The translations under genes were made by a program, and so were the position numbers. 64,000 nucleotides of DNA from the NCBI RefSeq assembly GCF_021129235.1, contig NZ_JAJOMA010000006.1:1-64000 (forward strand), given 5' to 3'. Under the pieces are notes generated by a model that was not told the origin of the DNA, made no database searches, and saw nothing but the letters and a program-made list of their open reading frames with translations. This document shows positions 33,397-47,725 of this stretch, in pieces; the first letter of the stretch is position 1; each line of letters starts with the position of its first letter. This DNA comes from Kineosporia mesophila. Its GTDB lineage: Bacteria > Actinomycetota > Actinomycetes > Actinomycetales > Kineosporiaceae.

Positions 33397-33438
33397 AGCA
33401 GCTAAAGCAGCTAAAGCAGCTAAAGCAGCTAAAGCAGC
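33394..33438. repeat. 9-bp tandem repeat, 5 units, spanning two stop codons
   Basis: The unit taaagcagc is repeated five times between convergent genes. The first unit supplies the TAA of DUF445; a CTA within the array supplies the TAG of the minus-strand oxidoreductase. Confidence 0.9.
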
Positions 33439-34499
33439 TGCACCACACCACTCCCGATCGACGCATAACCCGCAGCCACCACCCGGGAGGTCTGGACCGC
33501 GTCCTCTGCTGTGGTGGGAGCCGTTGCCTCACCGGCTATCTCACGCAACAAGGCACGCATCGGCCCGGCGAAGGCGTGCGGCGTCCAGCGGGTGCTCACC
33601 GGATAGGGCAGCCAGCCGTCGGTGGGCAGCACGCGACTGCTGAACTCCAGGGTGACGGGCTCGGCCCGCAGGTCGACGCGGATCGAGCCTTGTGCACCGT
33701 CGATGCGCATCCGGGCCCACCGGTCGCCGGTGGTGTTCTCGTGGTCGACGGCCACCAGGGCCCGGGCTCCGGAGGCGAAGGTCATGGTGGTGGTCGTGCG
33801 AGTCTCTCCGGTCACGCTCTGGCCCGGGCGGCGGCCGGCCACGCAGTACACCGTGGACGGGCTCCCGAGCAGCGCGCGCACGGTGTCGAAGTAGTGGACC
33901 GAGTGGTACATCAGGTCGAGCTGAGGGGACTGCGCCAGCCCCGGCCGGTCCGGCCAGTCGGTCCTGCCGCTCACGTCGACCGTGACGGCCGTGACCTCTC
34001 CGATCCAGCCCGCCTCGGCGATCGCCCGGGCCGCGGCCATGCCCTCGCTGTACCGCATCTGGTGATTGACCACGAGCGACCGGCCGGCGACGCGCGCGGC
34101 AGCGGCCAGGTCGACGGCCTCGGCGTGCACCAGCGCCAGGGGATTCTGGGCCAGCACGTGCTTGCCCGCGGCCAGGGCGGCCCGCACGATCGGCGGCTGC
34201 TCAGTCGGCAGGACGGCGACATCCACCACCTCGATGGTGTCGTCGGCGAGAACATCCTCGAGCGTGAGGACGCGCCTCAGCCCGAACGCTGCCCGCGCGG
34301 CATCCGCGCGGGCCGGGTCCCGATCGCAGATACCCACCACCGGCAGCCCGGCCGCGGCATAGGCGGGCAGATGCCCCGCCCGGACCACGGCCCCGGCGCC
34401 GATCACGGCGATGCGCCGGTGCAGACGCCCGGGGATGGAGAGGTCACAGGCCTGGGCGATCGGCTGGAGCAGGTCGATCAACGCGGATCTCCACTTCAC
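33429..34499 (-). CDS. Gfo/Idh/MocA family oxidoreductase
   Basis: This 356-residue protein has the N-terminal Rossmann start RIAVIGAGAVVRAGHLPAYA after a ~28-residue extension. It also has VLADDTIEVVDVAVLPTEQP and AALAAGKHVLAQNPLAL, where the usual EKP motif is QNP. The C-terminal beta-sheet domain covers about 130-356. Such enzymes oxidise or reduce sugars and inositols with NAD(P). The altered QNP motif (Lys missing) may change cofactor geometry or substrate. It starts at GTG 34499, 7 bp after the AAA ATPase stop, so the two may be cotranscribed. Confidence 0.88.
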   Translation of the reverse strand: MKWRSALIDLLQPIAQACDLSIPGRLHRRIAVIGAGAVVRAGHLPAYAAAGLPVVGICDRDPARADAARAAFGLRRVLTLEDVLADDTIEVVDVAVLPTEQPPIVRAALAAGKHVLAQNPLALVHAEAVDLAAAARVAGRSLVVNHQMRYSEGMAAARAIAEAGWIGEVTAVTVDVSGRTDWPDRPGLAQSPQLDLMYHSVHYFDTVRALLGSPSTVYCVAGRRPGQSVTGETRTTTTMTFASGARALVAVDHENTTGDRWARMRIDGAQGSIRVDLRAEPVTLEFSSRVLPTDGWLPYPVSTRWTPHAFAGPMRALLREIAGEATAPTTAEDAVQTSRVVAAGYASIGSGVVQLL

Positions 34500-34505
34500 T
34501 GAGTG

Positions 34506-35729
34506 CTACTCGGCTGCCTGCCTGCGCAGGTACCGACCGAAATGTGGCACAGTGAAGGAGATTCGGCCACGTTCTCCGGAATAGATGAGGCCCTTCTTGA
34601 TCAGTGAATCACGAGCGGGTGACAGGGACTGGGGTTTTCGGCCCAGCAGCAGGGCGATCTCGGAGGTCGCCACCCCCGCGTCACCCATCGACAGACTGGA
34701 CGGCAGGTCGGCGGAGACCTCGGCCATGGCCCGCAGGTACTCCCGCTCGGACGGGGTGGCGCGCTCGTAGCGGGAGCCGAAGAAGCCCACCGCCAGCTCG
34801 GCCTCCGCCTCCGGGGCCGCCACCTTCACGTCGTCGACGGTGATCGGGGTGCGCGGGGCGACGTCCCAGGTCACCTTGCCGTAGGCCTGGATGAAGTACG
34901 GGTACCCGGCGGTGACCTCGTACATCTGGGCCAGGGCCTCTTCGGTGAAGTCGGCGCCCTCTTCCTGGGCGGGTGGACGAAGCGCCTGGGCGGCCGCCTG
35001 CGGGTCGAGTCGGTCGATCCGCACGTATTTGAAGAGCCTCTCGGAATAAGACTTGCTGGCCGAGAGCACGGCGGGAATGTGCGGCAGACCGGCGCCCACC
35101 ACGACCAGCGGCAGACCCTGCTGACCGAGCTCGTGGCAGGCGGCGCACAGGGCGGAGACGTCTTCGGGCAGCAGATCCTGCATCTCGTCGATGAACACCG
35201 CGATCCCACGACCGGCCCCGGCGGCCACCCCGGCAATATCGGAAAACAGTTCCACCAGGTCGATCTCGATATCGCCGGAATCAGCCCGACCGGTGACGGC
35301 GGGCACGTCGATGCCGGGCTGCCAGCGATCCCGCAATGCCGTGCGACCCTTGGCCGGCGGGGCCGGTTCTTTCATGGCGAAGGATTTCAGAATGCCCAGC
35401 ACGTGGTTCGTATCGTCTTTGTTGGCGGGCGAGAGCTCCCGCACGGCCTGGTGCAGGGCGGCGGCCAGGGGGCGGCGCAGCGGGGTGTCGGGCCGGGCCT
35501 CCAGCTTGCCGGTGCCCCAGCGCCGTCGCACCGCCGCCGAGCGCAGGGCGTTGAGCAGCACGGTCTTACCCACCCCGCGCAGGCCGAGCAGCACCAGGCT
35601 GCGCTCGGGCCGGCCTCGGCTGATCCGTTCCAGCACCACGTCGAAGCTTTCCAGCTCGGCGTCACGACCGGCCAGCTCGGGAGGACGCTGACCCGCGCCA
35701 GGGGCATAGGGATTACGCACCGGATCCAC
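34506..35729 (-). CDS. AAA ATPase (STAND-like) with C-terminal winged helix
   Basis: The 407-residue product has Walker A VLLGLRGVGKTVLLNALRS near residue 47, Walker B GIAVFIDEMQDLLPEDV near residue 175, and sensor VVVGAGLPHIPAVL. A C-terminal winged helix (TSEIALLLGRKPQSLSPARD, then LIKKGLIYSGERGRISFTVP) follows. This is the ORC/Cdc6-like or KAP-type ATP-binding family common in actinobacteria and often annotated only as ATP-binding protein. Its 92-bp divergent intergenic region with the giant NTPase fusion gene suggests a shared control or shared function. Mechanism unknown. Confidence 0.85.
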   Translation of the reverse strand: MDPVRNPYAPGAGQRPPELAGRDAELESFDVVLERISRGRPERSLVLLGLRGVGKTVLLNALRSAAVRRRWGTGKLEARPDTPLRRPLAAALHQAVRELSPANKDDTNHVLGILKSFAMKEPAPPAKGRTALRDRWQPGIDVPAVTGRADSGDIEIDLVELFSDIAGVAAGAGRGIAVFIDEMQDLLPEDVSALCAACHELGQQGLPLVVVGAGLPHIPAVLSASKSYSERLFKYVRIDRLDPQAAAQALRPPAQEEGADFTEEALAQMYEVTAGYPYFIQAYGKVTWDVAPRTPITVDDVKVAAPEAEAELAVGFFGSRYERATPSEREYLRAMAEVSADLPSSLSMGDAGVATSEIALLLGRKPQSLSPARDSLIKKGLIYSGERGRISFTVPHFGRYLRRQAAE

Positions 35730-35821: not shown

Positions 35822-38800
35822 ATGGGGCGGGGACAGGGCACCATTTCCGACGGCGTGCGGGGCGCGATCCTGGCCCTGATCATCGGCATTCTTCTATTTG
35901 CCGGCAACGACACGCTTCTCGCGCTCGTCGCCGGGCTCGCGCCGCTGGCCTTCACCGGCCGGGAGAACCGCCAGAACCGCACCGGCACCGACGAACTCGA
36001 GGAATTTCGCGAGCGGCTCCACGTGATCCAGTCCGATGCCTGGCGCCGTCGGCGCCCCGGCCGCCGGGTGGCCGCCGACGACTGGTGGGGCATCGCCGAC
36101 GTGCCGGTGCCCCTGCTGAAGGAACGCACCGACACCCTGCCCCCGGAACCCCCGGCGGCGCGGGACCGCAAGAACCCGGTGCGGCTGCCGAAGTTCTTCC
36201 GCTCGATCCCGAAAATCGTTCCGGGACAACCGAAGATTCTGGAAGACGCCGAACCGTACGACTTCGAGGAGTTCGAGCCGGAGAGCGTGCGACCGGTGCT
36301 GGAGGCCCTGGCCGGGGGCCGGTACAACCTCGTGCTCCGCGGGCCCCAGAACTCGGCCAAGACGGGAACGCTGCTCGGTTTCGTGCTCGCCGCGCAGCAG
36401 ATGCGCAACGAGGACCGCAGTTTTCCGCTGGCGATCCGGGTGAGCCTGGCCGGCTGGGAAGACCACTGGCGCGAGCACCCGACCGGGCCGGACTCCCAGC
36501 CCGGCCTCATCGACTGGATCAAGGTGCGGTTCCGCGACGACTACCCCGGTCTCCTGGAGCACGGCGCACCGGCCGACGACCTGCTCGATGCCCTCTGGCG
36601 GGACGACAGCCGGGCGGGCGGCAACACCGTCGTCCTGTTCGTCGACGACATCGACCGGATCCGGAACAGCTCCGTGCGCGACCGGATCATCGCGGAACTC
36701 GGCACCCGCACGGCGCTGCTCACGCACGCGGAGGATGCCGATCCGGACTTCTGGCCCGGCCGCTGGGTGACGCTCGACCTGACCCGGCCGACCCTGGCGT
36801 ACGCCCGGGCGGTGCTCCCGGGAGAGGTGTCCCAGGTACCCCGGCGTATCTACGAGAGTCCCCGGCTGCTGCGTACTCTCCGGAGTGCCTACCCGAAGTC
36901 CGAGGACCTCGGGCAACGCCTGGAGACCCTGAACGAGAAAGACCAGGAGAGACCCGCGAGAAGCCGGTACAACGGCGGGGCCGTGGACGAGTTCTGGAAG
37001 GGACTGATCCACGAGGGCTGGGAGGCCCGCCCCCAGCCGGCCGGCCCCCGGGACCAGACCTGGCACGCCCGCCTCGGGCACGGCCTGGCCGCCGTCGGCC
37101 GCCCGGTGATCCACTGGTTCACCATCCGGTGGTTCATCACCTCACCGCCCCCACCGGCCCGCCGGAGCGCCGAGTCACCGGCCGTCCGCACGCTGAAGTG
37201 GGTCGCCCGGGCCGGCCTGTTCGAGAACACCCGGTTCGCCTGGTGGGAGGTTCCCCGCCGGGCGGCCCAGGAGCCCGGGACGGCCACGCCCCAGCGCCTC
37301 TGGACCGCGAGCATCGACAAGGGCCGGCCGTTCCGGGGCGGCCTGCGGATCCAGGCCTGGCGGGCGGGGTCCGGCCGGCCGCTGATCACCGCCGCCTACC
37401 GGCGACTGCTGTGGCGACGCGCGCTGTCGGCGACGGCCTGGGCGATCGGCACCTTCCTGGCCGGTCTGCTCGTCATCGCTGCCTGCCTGTGGCTCGGGCT
37501 GGTGCAGGGCTACGACCGGGCCAGCCACGGACTCCAGGGAGCCGGCGTCCTGACCTGGTCCGACGTCGCGCAGTGGGACTGGCACTCACGCCATGCGCCA
37601 CTCACCAATCCCCTCTACCTCTCCGCGTCCGTGCTGTTCGTCGTGGTCCTGACCGTGTTCGGGCTGGCCCGGTTCGGCGACGAGTTCGAGCACAGCGACG
37701 GCGGCCGGCCGCAGATCATCCGGCCGCGCCTGCCCGGGGGCCGGCAACTGCGCGAGATCGCCCGGCTGATCCCCCGGCCCAGCGCCGTTCTCCTGGTTCT
37801 CGGGATCGTCTCGGCCGTGGTGCTCCAGGTGATGAACTCCGGCCTCAGCGAACAACTCTGGACCGGAACGACCTTCTCGGCGCTGTTCGTCTCCCTGCTC
37901 GCCTGGCTGCACTGGTGCTCGCAGGAGGGCGACAACCTAACCCCCACAGATACTTTCGCCAGCGACCGGAGATCCACCCGAGTGGTGGCCAGCACCCTGG
38001 GGATCGCCATGGTCGCGAGCTCCACCACGCTGGCCTGGTGGTTCACCTCGCCCGGCCACGTGCCCACGCTCGGCCAGTGCCTGTGGATCAGTGGCGCCGC
38101 CGCCGTGTCCGTCGGCCTGGCCCGCGGCTTCCACCTCGGCGCGGGCATGATCGCGCCCATCCTCTTCCCCCTGCGCGAGGGATTCGGCATCGGCTACGCG
38201 CACCGGATGCGGATGCTGGAGATCAGCCTGCGGCGCATCGACGACCGGCGGGCCGCGTACGACGCCGCACTGGCCCGGCGGGCCCAGGACCCCGACCCCT
38301 CGGAGGCGGCGGACGCCGCCCGGCGGGAGCTGGCGCCCCTGACCGTCATCTCCGCGTTCGACCTGAACCAGCGGGCCTCGTGGGACGACGAACGCCACCG
38401 CGGCCTGGTCCTGCGGCACGTGGGCTCACTGATCCGGCTGCGCGACGTGACCCTGGAGCGGTACCTGGCCCCGGAGGGGAAGGCCCCGGAAACCACGCGT
38501 CCCCGCACCTCCCGGTGGCGGCAGGCGATCATCTTCGTCTCCCTCCTGACGGCCGTTCTCAGCCTGACCGGGACCGCGGCGGTGGTGGTTCCGCGAGCCC
38601 TCTGCGCACCCTTCCAAGACACCTTCCAGAACCCGGTGCGGTCACTGAACACCGTGCCCACCGCACAGACCTGGCTGGAGAACGGCCAGTGCGTCGGCTT
38701 CGACACCCTGGTCGGAGACGGCAACCAGTTCGACAGCACGATCGAGCCCAACGGCGCCCCGGAGGCCGAGCGCGACGAGATCCTGGCCCGCATCCAGAAG

Positions 38801-40057
38801 CAGAACGCCGCGATCCCGTCCTCCCAGCGGGCGGTGAACGTGCTGTTCCTCGCGCCCCTGAGTCGCACCCCGGAGAGCAAGTCCATCAATGCGCTCTACC
38901 AGTTGCGCGGGGCCCAGGCCGCCCAGTCCGACATCAATGCGGCCGGGTCGGTGTACGTCCGGCTCACGATCGCCAACGTCGGTGAGGACTTCACCTCCGG
39001 CCCCGCGGTCGTGCAGATGATCGACCGCCAGTTCCCGTCCGATCCCCGTGACCCCAACTCGATCAAGGCCGTGATCGGGATCGCCCAGAGCCGGGCCGCG
39101 GCCCGGGAGGCCCTTGCCCAGTTCGACGACGTCACGATCGTCGCCAGCAGCGTGAACGGCAACGGCATGCGGCACGGGCTGGTCAAGGGTCAGGACGTGG
39201 ACCTGGGGCAGTACTTCGTCAGTGTCGCCCCCAGCAATCTCGACGTGGCCCGGGCCCTGCTGTCGGCACCGGCCCTGGACTGGGCCGGGAAGGCTCTCGG
39301 GCCGAAGGGTTCCGGCCCGGCCCAGCGGCCGCTGAAAATCATTCTCGACGACCGGGACACCTTCTTCAGCAACGATCTGGCCAGCTCCCTCGAGTACGTG
39401 GGCGAGACCCAGGACACCGCGGGCTTCGCCCGGCCGATCCGGGTACCCCTGCGGGAGACCGCCTCCGACCGCCAGTACGACGATCTGGCCCAGGACCTGT
39501 GTTCTCCCGAGAATGCCCAGACGGTCTGGCTCTTCGCCGGGCGCGGCAACCAGCTGGCGCGGCTCGGTGAGTCGATCGGGAAAGGCTGTACGAACACCCC
39601 GACGATCCTCGCGGGCCCGGGATCGCTCAGCGCCATTCAGGCCACCACCCCGAAAACCATCGGCTACCTGGCCAAGACACGCTTCTACTCCCTCGTCGCC
39701 CAGGTGTCGGGCAAGATCGAGCAGGGGACGACGTGGTCGGCCGGGGTGGCCCGCCGCGGCGACGAGGCCACCGGCTGGGCGGCTCTGGTCGAGGCCTACC
39801 GCCGGGTGGCCCCCTCCGACATTTCCGGGTGCCCGGATCCGGTGAGTGAGGTACCCCAGATCAGCGTCAGCATTCCCGGCGATCCGGACCGGGACGGGCA
39901 CAACACCCTGCAAGCCAGCCCCTGCACCCCGGAGCCCACACCGATCTACCTGTGCCCGGTGCTGGCCAAGGCACCGGTCGCCACCTTGTCCGGGGGGAAG
40001 AACGACTGCCTGGAAGCCCCTACGGCAAAGCCTGACGCAGCGTCCCCGGCCCCATGA
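35822..40057 (+). CDS. Giant NTPase / multi-TM / type-1 periplasmic-binding fusion protein
   Basis: This 1411-residue protein has four parts. Residues 13-45: two hydrophobic helices (GAILALIIGILLFAGNDTLL). Residues about 145-420: an NTPase with P-loop LVLRGPQNSAKTGTLLG (about 172) and Walker B TVVLFVDDIDRI (about 270), NACHT/STAND-like. Residues about 530-790 and 902-924: seven or more transmembrane helices. Residues 930-1380: an extracytoplasmic domain with VNVLFLAPLSRTPES and FVSVAPSNLDVARALLSAPA. That domain is organised like a type-1 periplasmic-binding (branched-chain-amino-acid receptor) fold. The tail is Pro-rich. A signal-sensing outside domain linked to an inside NTPase suggests a one-protein receptor. 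AAAGGAG lies 17 bases before ATG 35822 and directly abuts a two-codon frame (ATG CCG TAA). Family call is by motif only. Confidence 0.8.
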   Translation: MGRGQGTISDGVRGAILALIIGILLFAGNDTLLALVAGLAPLAFTGRENRQNRTGTDELEEFRERLHVIQSDAWRRRRPGRRVAADDWWGIADVPVPLLKERTDTLPPEPPAARDRKNPVRLPKFFRSIPKIVPGQPKILEDAEPYDFEEFEPESVRPVLEALAGGRYNLVLRGPQNSAKTGTLLGFVLAAQQMRNEDRSFPLAIRVSLAGWEDHWREHPTGPDSQPGLIDWIKVRFRDDYPGLLEHGAPADDLLDALWRDDSRAGGNTVVLFVDDIDRIRNSSVRDRIIAELGTRTALLTHAEDADPDFWPGRWVTLDLTRPTLAYARAVLPGEVSQVPRRIYESPRLLRTLRSAYPKSEDLGQRLETLNEKDQERPARSRYNGGAVDEFWKGLIHEGWEARPQPAGPRDQTWHARLGHGLAAVGRPVIHWFTIRWFITSPPPPARRSAESPAVRTLKWVARAGLFENTRFAWWEVPRRAAQEPGTATPQRLWTASIDKGRPFRGGLRIQAWRAGSGRPLITAAYRRLLWRRALSATAWAIGTFLAGLLVIAACLWLGLVQGYDRASHGLQGAGVLTWSDVAQWDWHSRHAPLTNPLYLSASVLFVVVLTVFGLARFGDEFEHSDGGRPQIIRPRLPGGRQLREIARLIPRPSAVLLVLGIVSAVVLQVMNSGLSEQLWTGTTFSALFVSLLAWLHWCSQEGDNLTPTDTFASDRRSTRVVASTLGIAMVASSTTLAWWFTSPGHVPTLGQCLWISGAAAVSVGLARGFHLGAGMIAPILFPLREGFGIGYAHRMRMLEISLRRIDDRRAAYDAALARRAQDPDPSEAADAARRELAPLTVISAFDLNQRASWDDERHRGLVLRHVGSLIRLRDVTLERYLAPEGKAPETTRPRTSRWRQAIIFVSLLTAVLSLTGTAAVVVPRALCAPFQDTFQNPVRSLNTVPTAQTWLENGQCVGFDTLVGDGNQFDSTIEPNGAPEAERDEILARIQKQNAAIPSSQRAVNVLFLAPLSRTPESKSINALYQLRGAQAAQSDINAAGSVYVRLTIANVGEDFTSGPAVVQMIDRQFPSDPRDPNSIKAVIGIAQSRAAAREALAQFDDVTIVASSVNGNGMRHGLVKGQDVDLGQYFVSVAPSNLDVARALLSAPALDWAGKALGPKGSGPAQRPLKIILDDRDTFFSNDLASSLEYVGETQDTAGFARPIRVPLRETASDRQYDDLAQDLCSPENAQTVWLFAGRGNQLARLGESIGKGCTNTPTILAGPGSLSAIQATTPKTIGYLAKTRFYSLVAQVSGKIEQGTTWSAGVARRGDEATGWAALVEAYRRVAPSDISGCPDPVSEVPQISVSIPGDPDRDGHNTLQASPCTPEPTPIYLCPVLAKAPVATLSGGKNDCLEAPTAKPDAASPAP

Positions 40058-40409
40058 CCAGCGCTTCTTCGGGCAACCGGGCCCGCAGGCCCCGGTCGGC
40101 GGTGGCCACCAGCGGGATCCCGCCCTCGGCGACAATCTGCTCGGCCACCACGACGATCGTGCTGTCCCCGTCGGCAGTGGCCCGGATCACCTCGACCGGC
40201 TCCGGACCGGTCGCCCCCTTGGCCTTGCCCTCGACGACGGCGAGAATGCGCCTGACCGAAACGCTTTCGCCCTGCACGGAGAGGTCGGTCACCGAGGCCA
40301 GCTCGCCCAGCAGCCGGGTGGCCGCGCCGAGCCGGTCGCGCCACCAGCCGTCCGGCCGGCTCCCCATCACGTTGGCCACGTCGACGAGGAGCACCACCTC
40401 GTCAGTCAT
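40020..40409 (-). CDS. PIN/NYN-like nuclease-fold protein
   Basis: The 129-residue product from ATG 40409 begins MTDEVVLLVDVANVMGSRPD and has WWRDRLGAATRLL, GDSTIVVVAEQIVAEGG and PLVATADRGLRARLPEE. The N-terminal DxANV and distal ATADRGLR acidic positions fit the PIN-like/NYN RNase superfamily. It is short and may lack some catalytic acids. It overlaps the upstream E1 gene by eight bases (ATGACTGA), so translation is coupled. Its 3' end overlaps the convergent fusion gene by 38 bp. Confidence 0.75.
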   Translation of the reverse strand: MTDEVVLLVDVANVMGSRPDGWWRDRLGAATRLLGELASVTDLSVQGESVSVRRILAVVEGKAKGATGPEPVEVIRATADGDSTIVVVAEQIVAEGGIPLVATADRGLRARLPEEALVMGPGTLRQALP

Positions 40410-42747
40410 CACACAGCGCCCGGGCGGTGGAGAGGATGCGCAGTTGCGTCAGTTCCACGAACTGTGCCGCCGGGCCGGACGGGAGCGGACTGTCTTTCGC
40501 CGTCACCCGGGCCAGCCGGCCGTCGAACCCGGCCTCCAGCACGCCGGTCACCAGGGCCTCGGAAACTCCTCCGCTGCGTCTGGTCTCGTCCACGATCAAC
40601 AGATTCCCGGTGGCCGAAGCGGCGGCGATCACATCGTCCATCGGTAGAGGAGCCAGCCACCGCAGATCGACCACCCGGCAACCGATGCCCTCACCCTCCA
40701 GCTCGGCCGCCGCGCGCAGCGCCAGGCGCAGGCCGTTTCCGTAGGCCGCGATGGTGAGGTCGTTGCCGGAGCCGTGCACCACGGCCCGGCCGATCGGGGC
40801 GTGCAGCGAACCCCACTCCGACGGCGGCGCGTACGGCGCCAGCCAGGCGTCGTCGCCCTCGACGGTCAGATGCCGCAGGTGGTACAGCGCAACCGGTTCC
40901 AGCATCACGCTGACCGTGCCGTCGGCCTCGGCCGCCGCCAGGCAGGTGCGCAGCAGGGCCGGGGCCTGGGCCGGATGGGCCGGGCAGGCGATGACCAGAC
41001 CGGGGATGTCGCGCAGACCGCCCAGGGCGTTGTCCACGGCGACCGCTCCACCGAACCCGTCCTGGAAGCCGAGACCGGGCGCGCGCAGCACCATCGGGTT
41101 GCGGTAGGCACCGTTGGAACTGAAGGCCAGCGTGGCCACCTCGGCCCGCAGCAGTTCCTGCGCGGCGTGCAGGTCGTCGAGGCCGAGCTCGACGATCGGC
41201 AGCTGACCACTGACCGCGGCACCCATCGCCAGCCCGAGGATCGACGCACCGTGCGGTGCGGTGTCGGTGACCTGCGCCGGGCCCAGTCGTGTCTGCAGCC
41301 CCCGGGTCACCCCGTGCACGCCGCCGGCCCGGGCCACGTCACGACCCATCACCACCACCCCGGGATGCGCGATCGCGGCATCGAGCAGGGTGCGGTTGAT
41401 CGACTCGGCCAGGGTGAGCGGGCCCTCCTTCTCGGGCAGCCGGTTCTCGAAGGCGGCGGCCCGCCGGTCGGCCGCGGGCTCACGGGCCGCGGCCATCCCG
41501 ACCACGGCCGGGCGCCGCGGGGAGAGCGGTGCCATCACCTCGGCCGAGCTCCCGGGCCGGGCCCGGTGCGTGGCGTCTTCCAGCGCGGAGGCCACCCGGT
41601 CACGCAGGATCAGCAGCCGGTCGGCGACCTGTTCCCCGGTCATCACGCCGTGACGCACCAGCGCGGTCATCGTGGCCACGAGCGGGTCGCGCTGCCGGTC
41701 TTCGGCAATGCGCTCGTCACGGCGGTAGAGCTTCTCGTCGTCGGCCCCGCTGTGCCCACCGATCCGGACACACGACAGATGCAGCAACACGGGACGCCGG
41801 TGCGCACGGGCCGTCTCGACCGCGCGGCGCGCGGTCGAGAACAGGGTGGCGGCGTCGCCCGCGGTGTCGGCGTGGAAGTACCGCAGCCCTTCGCGGTTAC
41901 TCAAGGACGCGTGGATCCAGCCGGGTGGGCCGGAGGTGGAGTAGCCCAGTGAGTTGTCTTCGCAGACCAGCAGCAGCGGCAGCGGCACACCCTGTTTCGA
42001 GGCCCAGCAGGCGGTGTTGATCACACCTAGGGCCGTGCCGTGCCCGGCGGTGCCGTCACCGAAACTGGCCACCGCCACGGCGTCGCTGGGCCAGTTCAGC
42101 CGGCCCCCGACGATGCGCGCCCGGTCTCGGGGCTGGCGGCCGATCGCCCAGGCCAGGCCGAGGGCCCGGGGCAGGTGGCCGGCGGTCGTCGTGGGAGACG
42201 GCAGCACGGCGACGTCCGGGTGCGCGGGGGTCGGGCGGCGTCCACCGCCCGCGGGCTGGTCGACACTGCCGGCCAGGCCCCGCGCGACCGCGGCGATGCC
42301 GTCGTCCAGACCGGCCGACGCCAGCCGGGCCAGGTAGAACGCGGTCGAACGGTAGTGCGGGAGCACCGGGTCGTTGCTGCGCAACGCCATGGCCACGGCG
42401 GCGTTGCCCTCGTGCCCGGCCGAGGCCACGGTGAAACTGCCGAGCCCGGCGGCGGCCATCCGGCGGGCGGCCACGTCGAGCCATCGACTCGCGGCCTGGG
42501 CCTCGAACAGGTCGGCCAGGTCGGCGCGCAGGGCCTCGACCGGCGCCTCGTCATCGGTGCCGTCGACGGGAACGATCACGTCGTCGTCCGCCGGCTCGAC
42601 CGGCTTCACCTCGTCGAGGGGGATCAGCGACGAGAGACCTTCCAGCACCGCTCCCAGGTGGTCCACGAGTTCAGCCCCCGGCCCGGGTTCCCCCAGGTCG
42701 GTGACCGTCCTCAGTGGACCTTCCTCAGCGGACCGTGGGTGCTTCAC
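40402..42747 (-). CDS. Fused alpha/beta 2-oxoacid dehydrogenase E1 (thiamine-diphosphate enzyme)
   Basis: The 781-residue protein joins an E1-alpha half (about 70-395) and an E1-beta half (about 440-781). The alpha half has the thiamine-diphosphate motif ASFGDGTAGHGTALGVINTA ending in CEDNSLGYS, and the phosphorylation-loop-like RIGGHSGADDEKLYRR. The beta half has LDAAIAHPGVVVMGRDVARA and VVDLRWLAPLPMDDVIAAAS. This is the layout of branched-chain or acetoin-type E1 enzymes. No E2/E3 genes are nearby. The GTG start at 42747 lies inside the 3' end of the rhodanese gene (23-bp overlap), and it is coupled to the PIN-like gene downstream. The extended, acidic first 60 residues are unusual. Confidence 0.9.
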   Translation of the reverse strand: MKHPRSAEEGPLRTVTDLGEPGPGAELVDHLGAVLEGLSSLIPLDEVKPVEPADDDVIVPVDGTDDEAPVEALRADLADLFEAQAASRWLDVAARRMAAAGLGSFTVASAGHEGNAAVAMALRSNDPVLPHYRSTAFYLARLASAGLDDGIAAVARGLAGSVDQPAGGGRRPTPAHPDVAVLPSPTTTAGHLPRALGLAWAIGRQPRDRARIVGGRLNWPSDAVAVASFGDGTAGHGTALGVINTACWASKQGVPLPLLLVCEDNSLGYSTSGPPGWIHASLSNREGLRYFHADTAGDAATLFSTARRAVETARAHRRPVLLHLSCVRIGGHSGADDEKLYRRDERIAEDRQRDPLVATMTALVRHGVMTGEQVADRLLILRDRVASALEDATHRARPGSSAEVMAPLSPRRPAVVGMAAAREPAADRRAAAFENRLPEKEGPLTLAESINRTLLDAAIAHPGVVVMGRDVARAGGVHGVTRGLQTRLGPAQVTDTAPHGASILGLAMGAAVSGQLPIVELGLDDLHAAQELLRAEVATLAFSSNGAYRNPMVLRAPGLGFQDGFGGAVAVDNALGGLRDIPGLVIACPAHPAQAPALLRTCLAAAEADGTVSVMLEPVALYHLRHLTVEGDDAWLAPYAPPSEWGSLHAPIGRAVVHGSGNDLTIAAYGNGLRLALRAAAELEGEGIGCRVVDLRWLAPLPMDDVIAAASATGNLLIVDETRRSGGVSEALVTGVLEAGFDGRLARVTAKDSPLPSGPAAQFVELTQLRILSTARALCDD

Positions 42748-43894: not shown

Positions 43895-43960
43895 AGGGCA
43901 TATGGTTTCCACACCATGGGGTCGTCGGCGACCGTCAAGCCGCGACGATTCACCAGGGGC

Positions 43961-43982
43961 GGCCGGCACACACGTGCCGGCC
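43961..43982 (+). promoter_or_regulatory. Leader hairpin of first S55-type gene
   Basis: ggccggcac and gtgccggcc pair around a 4-base loop, ending 24 bases before ATG 44007. A matching hairpin at the same distance precedes the paralogue at 45947. Confidence 0.55.
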
Positions 43983-44006
43983 GTACACCAGCTCAGTGGG
44001 GGCACC

Positions 44007-45737
44007 ATGTCCAGGTCTCGTGCGGCCTGCGGGCTTGTCGCGGCCGCAGCGGTTTCCGGTCTTCTCGTAGCGGTTCCGGCGTCCTCGTCGGTCGCCGCGG
44101 CGACCGACTGCCCGACGGCGTTCCCCACCGCCGACGCGGTCGACGGCGTGACCGGCACCGGGTACACGGTCGAACGAGGCACTGATACCGACGAGTTCAC
44201 GGCCACGGTCCTGGGCCGGGTCAGCAACGGCATCGCCCCCGGCGTCGACATGATCATGGCTGAGGTCGACTCCCCGGCCCTCGAACGGGCCGGCGGGGTC
44301 TGGGCGGGCATGTCCGGCTCACCCGTCTACGCCTCCGACGGCCGGCTGATCGGATCGGTCTCCTACGGCCTGGCCGCATCGTCGAAGATCGCGGGTATCA
44401 CCCCGGCAGAAGACCTGCTCGCCCTGAACGCCACCGGCGGAGCCGCGAAGGTCAAGGTCTCCGGCTTCCGGGCCGCGCGCCTCGCCCAGACCGGCAAGGT
44501 GTCGAAGGCCCTGGCGAGCGAGGGTTTCGAACGCCTTCCGGTGCCGGTGAGCGGTTCCGGCCTGGCCCGGAAGAACACCGGCCGGTTCCTCAGGAGCATC
44601 AGCCGCACCAGCGGTATGGCCGTGCAGCCGGGCGGCGCCTCGATCAGTGTGAAGGCCACGTCGTCGCCGAGTGAGATCTTCGCCGGGTCGAATTACGTGG
44701 CGGCCCTGTCGTACGGCGACGTCTCCCTCTCCGGCCTGGGCACCACCACCTACGTCTGCGACGGCACCGCGATCGCGTTCGGCCATCCCTTCCTCAACGC
44801 GGGCCGGGCGGAGTACGGCGTGCACCCGGCGACCGCTGTCTACGTGCAGGCCGATCCGGTGAACGGCCCGTTCAAGGTGGGCAATCCGGGAGGCGTGGTG
44901 GGCACGGTCACCCGCGACGGCACGATCGGCCTGCGCAGCACGCTCGGGCAGGCTCCCCAGCACCAGTTCCCGATCACCACGTCACTGAAGAACGAGGACG
45001 GCAAGACCGTCACCGGCCAGACCGTGGGCGTGTACCAGCCCTACGCCGCCGACATCGCGGCCCTGCACCTGCAGAGCGCGATCGTGAAGGCCAACGGCTC
45101 GCAGGGTGCGGGCTCGGCCGCGGTCAGGATCACCGTGAAGGGCACCCGGGCCGGCGGAAAACCCTTCACCCTGAGCCACAGTGACCACTTCGCCGACACT
45201 CTCGATGTCAGTTTCACCGCGGCCGACAGCATCTACTACATGCTCACGCAGTTGCTCGGGCAGTCGTACGAAGACGTCAGCATCACCAGCATCTCGGTGA
45301 CGGGGTCGGTCGCGACCACCGTGAAGCAGTACCGCGTCACCCAGCTCGAGGTGAAGAAGCACGGCACGTGGCAGATGCTGAAGGGCATGCAGAAGGTGAC
45401 CGCCGGCGGCACGATTCCGCTGCGCGCCACGCTCACCGCCTATCGCAGCACCCAGACCGTGACGGTACCGCTCACCGTCGCCGTACCGAAGAACAGCCGC
45501 GGCTATGTCGGCACTCTCACCCTCTCCGACGGTCTGTCCGCCACCACGCCGGACCAGGAACCGAATTCCCTCACCTCCCTGATGGAGCAGATCAACGCCA
45601 CACCCCCGAACGATGCCGTGGTGAGCCGGATCGATCTGGACACCCCGACCGGTGGACTGGTGAGCAGCGTGCGCAGGACGACACTGCCGGGAGCCGTGAG
45701 CACCTACCTCAAGATGGTGCCGGTAACCATCAAATGA
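44007..45737 (+). CDS. Secreted SpoIVB/S55-type peptidase-like protein (paralogue 1)
   Basis: From ATG 44007 (GTGGGGGC just upstream) the product is 576 residues with a signal peptide (RAACGLVAAAAVSGLLVAVP, cleavage near ASSSVAA). Residues 99-120 hold GMSGSPVYASDGRLIGSVSY; S103 is the likely nucleophile of the S55 peptidase motif. The motif TTTYVCDGTAIAFGHPFLNA near residue 250 brings the His. In SpoIVB the His precedes the Ser; here the order is reversed, as in a broad bacterial family annotated as SpoIVB-S55 domain. The C-terminal ~200 residues are beta-rich. It is 60-70 percent alike by eye to the next gene. It may be cell-surface and is next to an SSI-like inhibitor. Confidence 0.85.
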   Translation: MSRSRAACGLVAAAAVSGLLVAVPASSSVAAATDCPTAFPTADAVDGVTGTGYTVERGTDTDEFTATVLGRVSNGIAPGVDMIMAEVDSPALERAGGVWAGMSGSPVYASDGRLIGSVSYGLAASSKIAGITPAEDLLALNATGGAAKVKVSGFRAARLAQTGKVSKALASEGFERLPVPVSGSGLARKNTGRFLRSISRTSGMAVQPGGASISVKATSSPSEIFAGSNYVAALSYGDVSLSGLGTTTYVCDGTAIAFGHPFLNAGRAEYGVHPATAVYVQADPVNGPFKVGNPGGVVGTVTRDGTIGLRSTLGQAPQHQFPITTSLKNEDGKTVTGQTVGVYQPYAADIAALHLQSAIVKANGSQGAGSAAVRITVKGTRAGGKPFTLSHSDHFADTLDVSFTAADSIYYMLTQLLGQSYEDVSITSISVTGSVATTVKQYRVTQLEVKKHGTWQMLKGMQKVTAGGTIPLRATLTAYRSTQTVTVPLTVAVPKNSRGYVGTLTLSDGLSATTPDQEPNSLTSLMEQINATPPNDAVVSRIDLDTPTGGLVSSVRRTTLPGAVSTYLKMVPVTIK

Positions 45738-45756
45738 CCGAATAGTTGATGACGAA

Positions 45757-45788
45757 GGGCCCCGTTCTTTTCGGACGGGGCCCTTTTT
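45757..45788 (+). terminator. Rho-independent terminator between S55 paralogues
   Basis: Arms gggccccg (45757-45764) and cggggccc (45776-45783) are followed by ttttt, a rare true U-tract in this GC-rich window. Confidence 0.85.
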
Positions 45789-45899
45789 CATCGAGACATG
45801 ACCGAAAGGAGTGTTCCCTTGCCGCTTTCTGGGGCCTTAGAGTTATCGACGCAACTGGGGGGTTGCAGCACCGCGCTTGCGCGGGCGGCCCTTCAGGCC

Positions 45900-45923
45900 T
45901 GCCCGGCACAGTGGTGCCGGGCA
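45900..45923 (+). promoter_or_regulatory. Leader hairpin of second S55-type gene
   Basis: tgcccggcac and gtgccgggca pair around agtg, ending 23 bases before ATG 45947. Core CCGGCAC/GTGCCGG and downstream GTGGGGGC are shared with the leader of the first paralogue. Confidence 0.55.
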
Positions 45924-45946
45924 GCTCTCGGACAAGTGGGGGCTCC

Positions 45947-47725
45947 ATGTCCATTCCTCGCATCAACTCCCGGGCGGCCTGCGGTGTCATCACGACCGCG
46001 GCCGTCTCCGCTCTCCTGGTAGCGCTTCCGGCCGGAACCTCTTCGGCCGCGCCGACGTTGCCGGACAACTGCCCGACGGCACTGCCCACCGACCAGGCGG
46101 TCGACGGGGTCGCCGGTACCGGCTATACGGTCGAGAAGGGCACCAAGGCAGACGCGTTCACCGCCAAGGTGCTGGGCCGGGTGACCGACGGCATCGCGCC
46201 CGGCATCGACATGATCATGGCCGACCTCGACTCGCCCGCCCTGGAGCGTGCGGGCGGCGTGTGGGCCGGCATGTCCGGGTCGCCGGTGTACACCGCGGAC
46301 GGCAAGCTGATCGGGTCGGTCTCGTACGGCCTGGTGACGCCCTCGAACATCGCGGGCATCACGCCGGCCGAAGACCTGCTCGCCCTGCGCAACGACCCCT
46401 CGAACGCCCGGCGGGCAGCGACCCGGGCGAACGCGAAGATCGCCGTGCCGGGCCCGGTGGCCGAGCGGATCGCCAAGACCGGTGAGGCCACGAAGGTCAC
46501 GGCCGGTAAGGGCTTCCAGCGCCTGGCGGTGCCGATCAGCGCCTCCGGCCTGGCCCCGAAGAACACCCAGAACTTCCTCAAGGACGTCACCAAGGACAGC
46601 GGCATGGCTGTCCGGGCGAGTGCGGGCAAGTCGAAGTCCGGGGTGAAGTCGTCGCCCAGTGAGATCACCGCCGGCTCGAACTACGCGGCGGCCTTCTCGT
46701 ACGGCGACGTCTCGCTCTTCGCCCTGGGCACCACCACCTACGTCTGCGACGACACCGCTGTCGCGTTCGGCCACCCGTTCCTCTCGGTCGGCCCGTCGGA
46801 CTACAGCGCGCACCCGGCCGAGGCCGTCTACGTGCAGCCCGACCCGGTCTGGGGCCCGTTCAAGGTGGGTAACCCCGGCGGCCCGGTCGGCACGGTCACC
46901 TGGGACGGCACCAGCGGCATCCGCAGTACCCTCGGCCAGAACCCGGAACACGAGTACCCGGTGACCACTTCACTGGTCAACGACCAGGGCAAGACCGTCA
47001 CCGGCAGCACCACGGGCGTCTACCAGCCGTGGGCCGCCGACGTCGCGGCGCTGCACCTGCAGGCCGCGGTGGTGAAGGCGCTCGGCGCGCAGTCGCAGGG
47101 CTCGTCCGAGGTGAAGATCACCGTGAAGGGTACCCGCGGCGACGGCAAGAAGTTCAAGATCACCCACGACGACTACTTCTCCGACAACTACGACATCAGC
47201 TACGCGACCGCCGACAGCCTGTACTACCTTCTGTACCCGCTGGTTTCGCAGCCGTTCGAAGAAGTGAACATCACCGGCGTGAAGGTCACCGGCAAGGTGT
47301 CGACGGCCGTCAAGCAGTACCGGGTGAGTAGCGTTCAGACCAAGGAGAAGGGCAAGTGGATCCCGCTGAAGGACGTGACCGGCGTCGCGCCCAACGGCAG
47401 CATCCCGGTGCGGGCCACGCTCAGCGGCTACCGCAACGGTGACACCGTCACGATTCCGCTCACGGTCTCCGTGCCGAACGGAACCAGTGGCTACACCGGC
47501 ACTCTCACCGTCTCGGACGGTCGCAGCGTCTCCAGCGAGTACAAGGAGCCGAACTCGCTCGACGAGCTGCTGACCCAGCTGAACCAGACCCCCTCGGGCA
47601 ACCAGCTGGTGAGCCAGGTCGATCTGGACTCGCCGGAGGGTACGAAGGTGACCAGTAAGCGCGACGCCGAGGTCAACGGCGCCATCGCCTACTACTCCAC
47701 CCAGGTGGCCGTCACCGTGAAGTAG
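45947..47725 (+). CDS. Secreted SpoIVB/S55-type peptidase-like protein (paralogue 2)
   Basis: The 592-residue product from ATG 45947 has a signal peptide (ACGVITTAAVSALLVALPAG) and the same order of motifs as its neighbour. GGVWAGMSGSPVYTADGKLI holds the candidate Ser, ITPAEDLLALRND follows, and TTTYVCDDTAVAFGHPFLSV holds the His. It differs by a longer insertion after the first domain (residues about 145-175, Arg/Ala-rich) and by an acidic DDYFSDNYDISYATADSLYY segment. Each paralogue has its own terminator, so they are separate transcription units despite being adjacent. Likely a tandem duplication that has since diverged. Confidence 0.85.
   Translation: MSIPRINSRAACGVITTAAVSALLVALPAGTSSAAPTLPDNCPTALPTDQAVDGVAGTGYTVEKGTKADAFTAKVLGRVTDGIAPGIDMIMADLDSPALERAGGVWAGMSGSPVYTADGKLIGSVSYGLVTPSNIAGITPAEDLLALRNDPSNARRAATRANAKIAVPGPVAERIAKTGEATKVTAGKGFQRLAVPISASGLAPKNTQNFLKDVTKDSGMAVRASAGKSKSGVKSSPSEITAGSNYAAAFSYGDVSLFALGTTTYVCDDTAVAFGHPFLSVGPSDYSAHPAEAVYVQPDPVWGPFKVGNPGGPVGTVTWDGTSGIRSTLGQNPEHEYPVTTSLVNDQGKTVTGSTTGVYQPWAADVAALHLQAAVVKALGAQSQGSSEVKITVKGTRGDGKKFKITHDDYFSDNYDISYATADSLYYLLYPLVSQPFEEVNITGVKVTGKVSTAVKQYRVSSVQTKEKGKWIPLKDVTGVAPNGSIPVRATLSGYRNGDTVTIPLTVSVPNGTSGYTGTLTVSDGRSVSSEYKEPNSLDELLTQLNQTPSGNQLVSQVDLDSPEGTKVTSKRDAEVNGAIAYYSTQVAVTVK

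Follow-up and report, generated by a model that had tools for sequence, protein, structure and literature searches.

The window analysed here is a 64,000-nucleotide stretch of the actinobacterium Kineosporia mesophila (contig NZ_JAJOMA010000006.1, positions 1 to 64,000). It contains a gene (35822–40057, + strand) whose 1411-residue product is, on balance, probably a one-protein, ligand-gated transmembrane receptor that switches an ATP-dependent response. From the N-terminus onward, the protein is predicted to consist of a hydrophobic stretch, a cytosolic nucleoside triphosphatase (NTPase) region, a bundle of six transmembrane (TM) helices, a cytosolic linker, a further helix (TM7), and an extracellular type-1 periplasmic-binding protein (PBP) domain, or Venus flytrap. 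Several parts of this reading are established: a flytrap lies behind a membrane helix, a P-loop and a Walker B motif lie in the segment placed inside, the PBP domain makes the protein a member of a family, and NTPases are fused or linked to this domain in relatives. The gene is an unusual, new form of a lightly noted TM-PBP kind, with an NTPase that is intact but unclassifiable and six extra TM helices, and the wider family deserves more attention than this gene alone.

The open reading frame occupies exactly the positions given in an original prediction made from the sequence, and it is conserved in another species of the genus (genome G005), where the ortholog has equal length and 90% amino acid identity over its full length. 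An overall ratio of nonsynonymous to synonymous substitution rates (dN/dS) of 0.26 against this ortholog indicates that the gene is under purifying selection; by region, the TM bundle has the lowest ratio (0.155) and the final 70 residues have the highest (0.73). Searched directly against Pfam, NCBIfam, PADLOC and PDB, the whole protein had no match, two exact-peptide scans of genome contigs returned no relatives, and a tblastn search of plasmids gave no matches. A borderline match in one genome (G091) was due to chance, as its location is that of an unrelated secreted protein.

The outer domain and the membrane topology

Relatives were identified through the C-terminal part of the protein. 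A two-sequence profile of residues 927–1411 was searched across the class, and its best distant matches, which lay in long open frames, formed an alignable family (alignments A3 and A6) with a Cys-VG motif, a conserved Ser region (GxxQSR) and a YAGR motif. The predicted ligand-binding domain spans residues 946–1397 (38657–40012, +). It matches the family profile with E~1e-134, a profile that includes the domain's own sequence, while phmmer, which is independent of the profile, connects it to relatives at 3e-17. When the A6 profile was compared with PDB, it matched the LivJ-type (Leu/Ile/Val) binding protein 4gnr at 1.5e-17 and mGluR5 at 4e-7. Pfam recognised ANF_receptor in 15 of 58 family members and Peripla_BP_6 in 12 of 58; the domain of the K. 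mesophila protein by itself matched neither of these models. An AlphaFold2 model of the domain (mean predicted local distance difference test, pLDDT, 52; final ~130 residues not resolved) gave mGluR, CaSR and Leu-binding protein as the best Foldseek matches (E ~1e-9 to 1e-8). Because the family profile and the Foldseek matches of the model agree, the predicted outer domain is established as a type-1 flytrap by sequence and fold, as had been proposed for a domain of ~450 residues laid out like an amino-acid receptor.

Hydropathy predicts six membrane helices in residues 542–783 (37445–38170, +), some of them weak, with positive-inside loops, and a last helix, TM7, at residues 903–922 (38528–38587, +) leading outside; a TM helix before the PBP domain is common to family members. 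In addition, the hydrophobic stretch at residues 13–45 (35858–35956, +), followed by an Arg-rich loop, is probably a re-entrant hairpin with both ends inside. Together these agree with the seven or more helices of the original prediction. Loop charges obey the positive-inside rule with residues 46–541 and 784–902 inside and 923–1411 outside, and eight of the 11 cysteines fall in the outer part, three of those eight being invariant or near-invariant across the PBP family. Charge and cysteine placement support a C-terminal domain predicted to lie outside the cell. The predicted topology likewise supports the anticipated layout of a PBP domain outside and a P-loop NTPase inside on one chain, with neither a kinase nor a cyclase.

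The cytosolic NTPase region

The P-loop NTPase core (residues ~160–345; 36299–36856, +) is recognised by its motif order, which runs strand, Walker A, helix, strand, Walker B, and a strand with a sensor-1-like TALLTH. Walker A is GPQNSAKT (residues 174–181; 36341–36364, +) and Walker B is VVLFVDD (residues 270–276; 36629–36649, +). Both had been pointed out beforehand, the latter as VVLFVDDIDRI, and both are conserved in the ortholog. The two motifs appeared at the observed spacing in one of 20,000 shuffles of residues 46–535, with patterns that were picked after seeing the sequence. Unlike nearly all fused relatives, the protein keeps both motifs intact, with a non-canonical Walker A.

This motif order fits a STAND/AAA-like core. 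No NACHT, NB-ARC, STAND or other model in Pfam, NCBIfam or PADLOC matched the region, nor did profiles of the relatives' NTPases, and residues 1–925 had no match in any relative. An NTPase-only profile searched against 297 genomes of the class returned chance matches only, for example to AfsR/SARP-type regulators. After the core, neither a GxP motif nor a winged helix is evident, and only YESPRLL stands at the expected place. An AlphaFold2 model of the NTPase, built from a two-sequence alignment, was too poor to use (pLDDT 36.5) and had no Foldseek match. From the earlier label of a NACHT/STAND-like NTPase, the Walker motifs and their order survive, and the profile match and the GxP motif do not. 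Lacking a STAND profile match, a clear GxP and a usable model, we do not call the protein a STAND or NACHT member; that membership is unproven, and at most the protein may work like one.

A helical segment just beyond the core (residues ~349–398; 36866–37015, +) resembled EAD1 in a permissive Pfam search (E=0.08). The same segment gave a non-significant E=0.19 in hhalign and no match in hmmsearch, so an EAD1 domain here is unproven and the segment is kept only as a lead.

A receptor family with variable cytosolic halves

The class survey covered 297 genomes from 115 genera, and at a cut-off of E<=1e-8 the PBP domain was found in 57 genomes and 21 genera. It also occurs on named Streptantibioticus, Embleya and Nonomuraea replicons, at places for which the plasmid gene table has no gene entry. 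Sixty-five relatives were read at full length, with heuristic start codons. In nearly all of them a TM helix directly precedes the PBP domain, whereas the cytosolic half varies. The K. mesophila protein falls within the family as defined in this analysis, with a TM helix directly before the PBP domain, the Cys-VG motif and a variable cytosolic N-terminus, and its genome encodes a second family member (L080, on G000:C60), which is of the fused degenerate type.

Among 61 N-terminal parts, Pfam identified TIR (6), kinase (5), DUF4062 (5), EAD1 (4) and NB-ARC (1). The commonest cytosolic half is a degenerate STAND-like NTPase, a label given by eye to members outside the profiled sets, and about half of the relatives carry a domain without a P-loop. 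A 17-member profile of these P-loop-less domains matched the NTPases of a two-gene form of the system (hhalign 98.7%, 1.8e-16; hmmsearch 1.3e-15), which indicates that they are degenerate versions of those NTPases. In the two-gene form, a short TM-PBP gene lies 5 bp downstream of, or slightly overlaps, the gene for a P-loop NTPase of ~690 residues (GGxP by eye). This arrangement was seen at nine sampled loci and on two named plasmids, from Embleya and Streptantibioticus (L058, L084, L085, L122, L125, L129, L133, L141, L142; L199, L201), and occurs twice in G002, a genome of the same genus as K. mesophila. Quite apart from the K. mesophila gene, fusion, fission and adjacency in relatives link the PBP receptor to an NTPase.

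Other members combine the flytrap with modules of different kinds. The protein L154:4644-8294 (− strand) has the order TIR-NB-ARC-DUF7779-TM-PBP; its front half most closely resembles FxsT proteins, and a membrane helix and a predicted extracellular flytrap stand in place of the usual C-terminal repeats, making it, by its architecture, the sample's clearest case of an outside-sensing STAND. TIR, a Ser/Thr kinase, a TM helix and the PBP domain are joined in one chain at L143:5338-8835 (+) and L145:4962-7898 (−). In a phylogenetic tree of PBP domains, the K. mesophila protein is sister (97/93), on a long branch, to the fused degenerate-NTPase receptors L055, L118 and L140. Partner labels change 11 times on this tree against a minimum of six, which shows that cytosolic partners were swapped several times. 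At L056, L116, L117, L119 and L120, a DUF4062-TM-PBP gene is followed within 20–76 bp by a conserved major facilitator superfamily transporter gene.

The layout had originally been described as one with no known mechanism. Receptors of the NTPase-TM-PBP, TIR-TM-PBP or TIR-NB-ARC-TM-PBP type were not described in the literature searched, whose coverage excluded subscription papers and bioRxiv. The layout is not unique, however, since it is one form of a family present in about one fifth of the sampled class genomes, L154 included, and TM-PBP was already listed, in one sentence, as one of ~50 variable domains of EACC1-caspase systems (Kaur et al., 2020; PMC7159879, section 33). Those systems are likewise actinobacterial and membrane-associated, and some members end in TM helices and an extracellular PBP; the K. 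mesophila protein differs in having no caspase or peptidase domain and core genes as flanks, with an NTPase and six-TM bundle instead. The family as a whole is widespread and almost undescribed, and in other members the cytosolic half is an immune-type module (TIR, kinase, STAND or EAD1).

The outer domain shares its fold and profile with LivJ-type binding proteins and the flytraps of mGluR and CaSR, and aligns with them in the conserved Ser region of the binding cleft, but the protein is neither a lipoprotein nor a free solute-binding protein and has no ATP-binding cassette (ABC) permease or heptahelical G-protein-coupled receptor part. BvgS and EvgS, which are flytrap sensor kinases, and invertebrate Venus kinase receptors also place a flytrap outside and an enzyme inside on one chain; there the output is a histidine or tyrosine kinase, not a P-loop NTPase. 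The known role of bacterial STAND and TIR proteins is to sense intracellular events. STAND NTPases (NB-ARC/NACHT, FxsT-like) have a P-loop, a Walker B and a sensor domain C-terminal to the NTPase, and L154 joins that architecture to a TM-PBP; known STANDs, however, sense inside the cell through repeats, and the K. mesophila protein matches no STAND model and has no clear GxP. KAP P-loop NTPases, for which PMC8195603 cites Aravind 2004, also carry membrane helices, reportedly inserted within the NTPase domain, whereas here the helices follow the NTPase and no KAP hidden Markov model (HMM) matched.

Mechanism, alternatives and genomic setting

The receptor reading is based on the fold and sequence of the outer domain, the topology and cysteines, the swappable cytosolic partners and the two-gene form, together with the homology of fused degenerate NTPases to the separate NTPase, the architecture of L154 and the placement in the PBP tree. 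In such a receptor, the flytrap would bind a small outside molecule and then close. Closure could act through the membrane helices to alter how the NTPase assembles or its nucleotide state, and the NTPase would then serve as an ATP-dependent switch on a response, via either a cytosolic partner or the six-helix bundle itself.

Several observations weigh against this reading. The NTPase has no recognisable homology to those of the relatives, which leaves position, motifs and the PBP domain as the basis of the functional parallel; its Walker A is an AKT variant rather than GKT; none of the relatives examined has the six extra TM helices, which within the sample are unique to this variant; confidence in the PBP model is moderate; the C-terminal 70 residues are evolving fast; and no downstream partner gene was found.

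As to purpose, the protein and its relatives may, tentatively, be bacterial cell-surface immune-type receptors, outside-sensing counterparts of NLR and TLR proteins, in which a flytrap gates STAND/NTPase, TIR, kinase or EAD1 outputs across the membrane and the K. mesophila protein adds its own multi-helix membrane effector. If this is true, actinobacteria would use immune-type machinery to monitor small molecules outside the cell, as animals do through receptors on the cell surface. The class of flytrap points to amino-acid-like solutes as ligands for screening, which makes the idea open to a direct test.

A clearly less probable alternative keeps the receptor mechanism and assigns it another purpose, that of sensing nutrients or envelope stress, with the NTPase switch acting on metabolism or development rather than immunity; it overlaps with the receptor reading, which is itself neutral on purpose. 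This PBP class binds amino acids, some relatives have Ser/Thr kinase partners, and in one actinobacterial family (f35: L059, L121, L123, L126, L128, L130, L132, L134-L139, L144, L146) the receptors lie in conserved synteny between serC and citrate synthase/pdxH, with a DtxR-type regulator (neighbours named by eye), so these receptors look vertically inherited. However, the TIR, EAD1 and NB-ARC partners elsewhere point to conflict systems, and the K. mesophila gene is itself accessory.

The same conflict modules, the accessory insertion of the gene into a core block in two genomes, and a bundle that is both unique to this variant and its most constrained part could instead suggest a membrane effector. 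Flytrap engagement and NTPase assembly would then open the six-helix bundle as a gated pore, in a membrane-killing or ion-flux conflict protein. We regard this as unlikely, since the bundle resembles no known pore domain, the gene has no defence-island neighbours, and the conserved chromosomal synteny of many relatives is better suited to housekeeping sensing than to defence. A single-chain ATP-driven importer, in which the PBP captures a solute, the bundle of six or seven helices moves it and the NTPase powers transport, would unite all three importer components, and type-1 PBPs usually serve ABC importers, but it is quite improbable because the NTPase has no ABC signature and matches no ABC HMM (ABC_tran), the sole LSGG-like string being LSGGK at 1389 in the external tail at the C-terminus, and because most relatives carry the same PBP on one or a few helices, joined to an inside TIR, kinase or DUF4062, and have no transport parts.

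Returning to the receptor gene itself, it was found in two genomes of the genus (G000, that of the analysed strain, and G005), inserted between two core genes. One flank is an AAA_16 ATPase gene (34506–35729, −; PF13191, 1.5e-21), the divergent second ATPase that had been noticed 92 bp away. It is present as described, but it lies outside the receptor system: it occurs in 13 of 18 relatives, is 91–98% identical within the genus with or without the receptor, and homologues of the receptor do not neighbour this ATPase. A partner role is ruled out because this core gene is kept where the receptor is absent. The other flank is a small conserved core gene (40020–40412, −; NYN-like by eye, no Pfam match), placed by synteny, that shares 38 bp with the receptor's 3′ end. 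In the four other members of the genus that were examined, the AAA_16, NYN-like, E1 and rhodanese genes follow one another without the receptor, with 60–534 bp between the AAA and NYN-like genes.

A GFO/IDH/MocA oxidoreductase gene (33429–34499) occupies this spot in G000 and G005 only and is absent between DUF445 and AAA in G001–G003; judged by this distribution, it is a second accessory insertion beside the receptor. Further along the window, 43902–45737 and 45746–47725 encode tandem similar secreted proteins with a SpoIVB-like motif (MSGSPVY), which are duplicated in relatives too.

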